A DNA stretch of 51,046 bases, taken from positions 1 to 51,046 of the forward strand of contig JAFUXI010000046.1 in NCBI GenBank assembly GCA_017470995.1, in the 5' to 3' direction. Positions 41,078-41,531 of the stretch are shown in pieces (the stretch's first letter is position 1; every line of letters begins with the position of its first letter). The DNA comes from Spirochaetales bacterium. GTDB taxonomy: Bacteria; Spirochaetota; Spirochaetia; Sphaerochaetales; Sphaerochaetaceae. A model generated the notes under the pieces. The model did not search any database and was not told where the DNA came from. It saw only the letters and a program-made list of their open reading frames with translations. Position numbers and translations under genes: made by a program.

Positions 41078-41239
41078 TTAGCGGACACAGCTGGGAAAGC
41101 TGAATCAGCAGGTACAGCCAGCACAGCCAGGCCTGCCAACAACAGCCAATTACTCCTAACCTGCAATTCAGCTGTTGATGGCTATCTTCGCTATACCAGC
41201 CGTCTTGGCTGTCATAGCTGAACCAGCTGTATCAGCTAT
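41078..41239. repeat. Two mirror-image arrays of 9-bp units
   Basis: Left arm: AGC (once TGC) begins at 41080, 41089, 41098, 41107, 41116, 41125, 41134 and 41144. Right arm: GCT or GCC begins at 41171, 41181, 41190, 41199, 41208, 41217, 41226 and 41235. Each arm has a 9-bp period with one 10-bp step at the inner end. Every AGC has its complement at the mirror position (coordinates sum to 41317), so the arms form an imperfect inverted repeat about 70 bp long around a 23-bp centre. CAACAGC/GCTGTTG and ACAGCTGG pairs are exact. Read in frame, each arm would encode tripeptides with a central Ala. Not a CRISPR array: units are too short. Confidence 0.75.
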
Positions 41240-41276
41240 ATACAATACAAAAGGGGCCGCCGTAAAAAATGAATCG

Positions 41277-41403
41277 ACCCCCGTTTGTTGGAGCAAATCC
41301 AACATGGGGGTTTTGGACTTGCCCTCCGGCTCCCGGTTGTCCGCCTTTCGGGCCGGCCATGCTTCGGACACAGTGTGTCCTCATACCGCATGGCTTCAAG
41401 TCC
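41277..41403. other. Possible structured RNA between the repeat arrays and tRNA-Leu
   Basis: Hairpin A: ACCCCC (41277-41282) with GGGGGT (41306-41311), inner TGTTGGA (41286-41292) with TCCAACA (41298-41304). Then a three-way junction: closing helix GGACTTG (41315-41321) with CAAGTCC (41397-41403). Arm one has CCGG (41326-41329)/CCGG (41353-41356) plus CCCG (41332-41335)/CGGG (41349-41352). Arm two has CCATGC (41357-41362)/GCATGG (41388-41393), capped by GGACACA (41366-41372)/TGTGTCC (41374-41380). No family recognised; strand not resolved. No credible protein-coding frame was found in 41024-41451. Confidence 0.5.
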
Positions 41404-41416
41404 CACTGATTCCATC

Positions 41417-41452
41417 AAAAGAAAACAGCCCCTTGCGGAGCTGCTTTCTTTT
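41417..41452 (-). terminator. Terminator of tRNA-Leu
   Basis: A 16-bp stem (41417-41432 with 41437-41452, two G-T pairs) around a GCAA tetraloop on the minus strand, whose 3' arm ends in TTTTCTTTT. It begins at the discriminator base of tRNA-Leu. Confidence 0.88.
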
Positions 41453-41531
41453 GCGAGGAAAGGGACTTGAACCCTCACTCTTGCGAATAGGAACCTAAAT
41501 CCTACGTGTCTGCCAGTTCCACCATCCTCGC
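41452..41531 (-). tRNA. tRNA-Leu, anticodon UAG
   Basis: 80-nt type II tRNA. Acceptor GCGAGGA pairs with TCCTCGC, followed by discriminator A. D-arm contains GGCAGAC, the anticodon stem-loop is TAGGA-TTTAGGT-TCCTA with anticodon TAG, the variable arm is short (CGC-AAGA-GTG) and the T-arm is AGGGTTCAAGTCCCT. CCA is not encoded. Reads CUA and probably other CUN codons. Confidence 0.95.

Follow-up and report, generated by a model that had tools for sequence, protein, structure and literature searches.

Results

Structure of the inverted arrays

The element studied here lies in a 51,046-nucleotide stretch of DNA from a Spirochaetales bacterium (contig JAFUXI010000046.1), referred to in full as the window, and is followed on its right by a tRNA-Leu gene on the minus strand and a tRNA-Lys gene on the plus strand. 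Between window positions 41080 and 41237, an exact AGC or GCT triplet occupies 14 of 16 slots arranged in mirror order, with 9-bp steps and a single 10-bp step in each arm. The two core anchors are AGC at 41144 and, opposite to it, GCT at 41171; moving outward from each, the 10-bp step comes first and is followed by the 9-bp steps. The left anchors are found at 41134, 41125, 41116, 41107, 41098, 41089 and 41080, all of them AGC except the first, which is TGC. The right anchors are found at 41181, 41190, 41199, 41208, 41217, 41226 and 41235, all of them GCT except the third, which is GCC. Both inexact slots still retain GC. The preliminary description of this DNA had reported sixteen phased anchors, each with its complement at the exact mirror position; the 9-bp phasing and the single 10-bp step per arm stand as described, whereas two of the sixteen anchors are inexact and exact complementarity holds for six of the eight pairs and fails for two.

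The mirror score of the element (14) is well separated from the best score elsewhere in the window (5) and from the maximum obtained in 40 simulated first-order Markov windows of equal length (6). The inverted minisatellite proposed in the preliminary description is thus real and precisely phased. The mirror symmetry stems from two oppositely oriented arrays of one directional unit. Because the arms are degenerate outside the anchors, repeat finders of the ordinary kind report little at this locus. In the window copy, the cores CAACAGC and GCTGTTG form a perfect inverted pair of 7 bp.

A dispersed family of copies

Using the element as a query against its own genome, we identified a second copy on contig C52 with 69% identity. 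Pattern and profile searches revealed further full copies on contigs C24 and C2 of the same genome and on contigs C30, C24 and C5 of G005, a sister species in the same genus (record CAKJZO01, ‘Spirochaetes bacterium isolate MAG-R016’), in which the C30 copy is the ortholog of the window copy. A search of the genome and its relatives had been suggested at the outset; besides the window copy, it shows the layout three times in the own genome and three times in the sister species. The features of the window copy are collected in Table 1.

Table 1. Parts of the inverted-array element and their positions in the window
Feature	Position	Strand	Basis
5′ arm, seven inward-pointing 9-bp units, consensus RRNAYARCB	41078..41137	+	sequence, anchor table, unit profile over 16 arms
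Left core AACAACAGC, after the single 10-bp step	41138..41146	+	CAACAGC identical in six full copies
Spacer between the cores, 24 bp	41147..41170	.	comparison of copies
Right core GCTGTTGAT, in opposite orientation to the left core	41171..41179	-	comparison of copies
3′ arm, seven inverted 9-bp units	41180..41242	-	anchor table, comparison with the G005 ortholog

None of the other 137 family genomes searched contains the exact core pattern. A similar core occurs in at least 118 stretches of GTDB genomes and in 22 viral contigs; among those listed, phased arms are confined to the sister-species records, and the phased-arm scores of the others do not exceed 3, against 7–12. The arms of the family can be aligned without gaps, and a C is invariant at all five of the five aligned units in each of 16 arms (80 of 80 units). 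The spacer between the cores is 23–24 bp long in six copies and 36 bp long in the C2 copy, and its conservation among the AGC-type copies is limited to SAA close to its left edge and TT close to its right one. In addition to the inverted doublets, one-sided arrays are present in G005, G009, G010 and within the beta-galactosidase gene of the own genome. Copy number is low, at about five loci per genome, and the gene context varies from locus to locus: copies lie in the gap of a convergent or a divergent gene pair, upstream of genes, or within a gene. The feature in the window is therefore a member of a dispersed family and not a singleton. We also considered, and rejected, the possibility that the arrays encode protein: most arms do have an open inward frame, solely through the composition of the units, but no single frame runs through all copies.

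The comparison of copies also bears on the possibility that the mirror layout is a long hairpin or cruciform, in DNA or in RNA, maintained by selection on base pairing, as the preliminary description had offered as one of its two readings. Although the single strand folds better than shuffled sequences (z = −2.76) and the 7-bp cores are perfectly complementary, the two arms of one copy pair at 25.0 of the 47 positions outside the core, compared with 25.2 when the arms are taken from different copies. The proportion of standard pairs in the mirror structure is 68.9%, against 70.1% with shuffled partners, and covariation is below the shuffled mean. Among the 16 single arms there is likewise no conserved fold or pair, and the only Rfam matches in the window at the gathering score are the two tRNAs, which speaks against an RNA element. 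Since the arms pair no better with their own partner than with those of other copies, they are not kept as a hairpin, and we regard selection for such a structure as extremely improbable.

Arrays and transposase genes

At the comF locus of G005, the gene directly following a one-sided array encodes a Y1 transposase. A homolog of this gene in G009 is flanked by two inverted arrays, and the pieces recovered from G010 are compatible with the same arrangement. We then scored arrays by a lag-9 identity of at least 24 of 36 positions within 300 bp of the gene, a threshold passed by 0.98% of control windows. Among 15 non-redundant transposase loci in the genus, 13 are bordered by arrays, 12 with a 9-bp and one with a 10-bp period. 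In a second genus of the family, the more distant homologs have 9-bp arrays in three cases and 10-bp arrays in three. Clear arrays are absent by the lag test from two loci of the first genus (L433 and L434) and two of the second (L447 and L448), and no clear array with a period of 7, 8, 11 or 12 bp was found. The upstream array matches the inverted downstream array of its own locus at 30.7 of 36 positions on average, compared with 21.8 between loci and 21.5 in the direct orientation. It is also evident that the units are locus specific (e.g., GGGGTCATC, GAGGAGGAT, GCAACTAGA, CTTGCAAAT, GTCTGGTGC and GATGACAAT); in G004, which has several transposase copies, each copy is associated with a different unit.

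Dispersed arrays in turn resemble the arrays beside transposase genes. Those of G001, G010 and G034 each have their best match in the transposase-side array of their own genome, and for that of G009 the transposase arrays of G009 and of its sister G010 tie. For the copies in the window and on C52 and C24, the best match is the G005 transposase array, with a narrow margin in the case of the window copy (26 of 36 positions, the runner-up having 25). Unit similarity is correlated with transposase identity (Mantel r = 0.34, 6/5000), but this value is probably raised by the flanks shared at one locus and gives no more than a hint that the unit tracks the transposase.

The encoded proteins are about 230 amino acids long. 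An alignment of 18 homologs shows an invariant H-T-H motif (H80-T81-H82) and an invariant tyrosine (Y144), and PF01797 scored above its cut-off in eight of the 10 proteins scanned; at E = 0.1, Pfam detected no helix-turn-helix (HTH) family in the same 10 proteins. The structural model, with a mean pLDDT of 90.8, has extra C-terminal helices. Its best match in the PDB is the REP-bound RAYT 4er8 (Z = 12.6 over 145 residues), ahead of IS608 (Z = 9.9); VIA-align also returned tRNA(His) guanylyltransferases at Z < 8, which we take to reflect a shared ferredoxin-like arrangement. At two loci (L431 1507-2328 and L438 1507-2319), the transposase reading frame enters its own downstream array and ends as a (Q-T-H)n tail. 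Relatives of the transposase borne by plasmids or phages were not found by tblastn.

The own genome, whose assembly is about 81% complete, yielded no cognate transposase. The one Y1 protein found in it is a distant one, encoded on contig C50 without a 9-bp array, and its comF site has neither the array nor the transposase gene that G005 has there. The own-genome transposase may be missing from the incomplete assembly or may have been lost.

A different relation between arrays and transposases is conceivable, in which a host protein that polymerizes head to tail, as BldC and excisionases do, binds the 9-bp units as operator-like sites for chromosome organization or regulation, the arrays being non-mobile and the transposase merely sharing or exploiting the sites. 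A protein filament would suit both the invariant C in each unit and a period of 9 or 10 bp, which is close to one turn of the helix, and BldC is described in PMC5859096 as binding direct repeats of DNA as cooperative multimers. However, a single host protein fails to explain why the unit differs from copy to copy, with several units in one genome as in G004, and the difference in gene context at every locus also argues against it. We consider this explanation unlikely.

Turnover of units, spacers and loci

The arrays differ between species at orthologous sites. The G005 ortholog differs from the window copy by the absence of exactly one 9-bp unit from the 5′ arm and by one substitution. At the tsaD locus, the outer units and flanks (about 100 bp) are identical in the own genome and G005, whereas 12 of the 23 spacer positions differ (L002 266-302 vs L062). 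The 23–24-bp spacers are non-homologous among copies, and such divergence, seen even between the tsaD orthologs, is not predicted for a simple deletion derivative. At the nifJ/NAGK locus, the element is present in the own genome and only a partial, unit-like remnant is found in G005. We considered the G005 site as an empty site and rejected it as such, since the remnant persists and insertion and loss are indistinguishable there. No clean target-site duplication was seen.

Arrays are also present in some species and absent from others in the beta-galactosidase gene. In the own genome (C18, L264 1477-1560), a one-sided array with a core adds 63 bp in frame, equal to 21 codons, and lengthens the protein by TGTTEPTGSTKTTRSTETTGT. 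This insertion is absent from eight other species of the genus. At the same place in G001, the sequence SGSNSSNGSNSSNSSNS is encoded by another 9-bp unit, and in G002 the contig terminates within a third 9-bp array. The C2 and beta-galactosidase arrays of the own genome share 87% identity over 46 bp, which suggests that array sequence has probably been copied between the two loci.

Some of these observations would also be expected if the feature were a plain minisatellite, that is, a short inverted repeat whose 9-bp units are expanded and contracted by slippage, with no function or mobility. Slippage could well account for a difference of exactly one unit between the orthologous window copies, for the presence in G001 of another 9-bp array at the beta-galactosidase site, and for an unrelated collagen-like array of 9-bp units such as that on contig C37 of the own genome. 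Local slippage does not, however, give rise to cores that are shared, to arrays in inverted pairs, or to a position beside members of a single gene family. One and the same unit and core are found at loci of one genome that are not linked, dispersed arrays resemble the array beside the transposase gene, and the co-occurrence of arrays and transposases (13 of 15 loci) weighs further against it. We therefore assign a very low probability to slippage as the whole explanation.

Several other features of these genomes were noticed along the way. The C37 array just mentioned (L413 11637-11732) differs from the others in having GG at each 9-bp step and fills the whole gap between two convergent genes; if read past the stop codon of an XRE-type gene, it would encode collagen-like Gly-X-X repeats. 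An mtnA-like gene lies in forward orientation directly after comF in the own genome (L263 2298-5500), and in G005 it is inverted and located between the transposase gene and a mirror element (L274 2164-3977); an inversion between arrays is possible. At the tRNA-Leu gene near the window element, and at another locus at a tRNA gene read as tRNA-Thr, the 3′-terminal bases of the tRNA gene recur about 130–150 bp away, with a hairpin-rich stretch between the two occurrences (window 41320-41460; L014 1690-1860; L062 1610-1770). The Leu site of G005 has an extra partial copy. These tRNA 3′-end repeats look as if a small element had been inserted there.

Discussion

Our results suggest that the feature in the window is quite probably a non-autonomous element of the MITE or REPIN kind, whose inverted arrays are its ends, where a single-domain Y1 (HUH) transposase of the IS200/RAYT type probably binds. 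In an autonomous element, the transposase gene would lie between an array and its inverted counterpart, whereas the window copy has the two arrays alone, 24 bp apart. The occurrence of arrays with periods of 9 or 10 bp, without clear arrays of 7, 8, 11 or 12 bp, suggests binding on duplex DNA, with several transposase protomers sitting side by side on successive units about one helical turn apart. The conserved core CCAWCAACANCSAA would mark the inner boundary, where the transposase probably acts, and the HUH and tyrosine residues of the enzyme would cut and rejoin one strand, so that copies such as that in the window could be mobilized in trans. Whole 9-bp units would be gained or lost, making unit number variable, and the unit sequence would change along with the transposase lineage, so that each lineage has a private unit. 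Tentatively, and with slightly more doubt than belief, we further propose that these transposons form a branch of the HUH (Y1) transposons in which the ends are read through tandem 9- or 10-bp duplex units instead of a single-strand hairpin, each lineage having its private unit, and that the window element is a non-autonomous satellite of this branch.

RAYT-type transposases and their repeats have long been studied as domesticated transposases of unclear benefit. If their ends can indeed be minisatellites, hairpins would not be the sole recognition signal for RAYT-type enzymes. More than a dozen natural pairs of transposase and unit in one bacterial genus would then be at hand for work on specificity, from which a recognition code might be read. 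The same reading would account for hypervariable 9-bp arrays that might otherwise be dismissed as junk minisatellites, among them the in-frame array that makes an enzyme longer.

Several known systems share parts of this organization. The Foldback (FB) elements of Drosophila have inverted ends that are long, composed of short repeats in tandem, and separated by a small loop; they are eukaryotic, with an unrelated transposase and longer, different units, and the likeness to the window element is anatomical only. The IS200/IS605 elements share the Y1 HUH transposase fold, but their ends are subterminal hairpins, whereas the transposases studied here are larger (about 230 amino acids) and lie between arrays. 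REPINs and BIMEs are more similar, being inverted pairs of transposase-linked repeats around a short, weakly conserved spacer (PMC3116915, PMC2817692), with singlets beside doublets, intergenic positions and one repeat type per transposase. In contrast, REPs are hairpins of 20–40 nt with a GTAG-type tag, whereas the arms described here have no conserved hairpin and a variable count of 9-bp units. REPINs also show compensatory changes at paired positions, whereas covariation in the inverted doublet does not exceed that in shuffles, and REPIN copies number in the hundreds, compared with about five here.

The closest likeness is to the TIRtrons. In the text of PMC3733652, Di Nocera and colleagues describe TIRtrons as RAYT-like genes with terminal inverted repeats on either side and give a motif, GGGGWSAS, common to some of them, and according to the text of Quentin and colleagues (PMC6006769) most TIRtron transposases belong to TnpA_Y1 subclass 2.1, with no REP hairpins nearby. 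As described there, a TIRtron or TIRYT has a RAYT-related Y1/HUH gene between terminal inverted repeats in place of REP hairpins, and some are accompanied by families of dispersed repeats, all of which resembles the system reported here. The first seven bases of the GGGGWSAS motif as given in that text also resemble the units GGGGTCATC and GGGGACAAC of G009 and G010 and of the C2 and C18 arrays of the own genome. It follows that the earlier statement that no described element is like this one was too strong, the nearest kinds being the TIRtron/TIRYT branch (PMC3733652) and the REPINs (PMC3116915). Subclass 2.1 is described in PMC6006769 as having an HTH extension; Pfam detected none in the 10 proteins scanned here, and the predicted structure does have extra C-terminal helices. 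The inverted repeats also differ, being tandem arrays of 9 or 10 bp in which the unit varies with the transposase copy; the text passages of PMC3733652 and PMC6006769 considered here make no mention of tandem units in TIRs, which the published TIRs may nevertheless contain. Taken together, the system described here is most likely a relative of the TIRtrons or TIRYTs, and, relative to the text of those two papers, what appears to be new is the build of its inverted repeats as tandem arrays whose unit is specific to the lineage.
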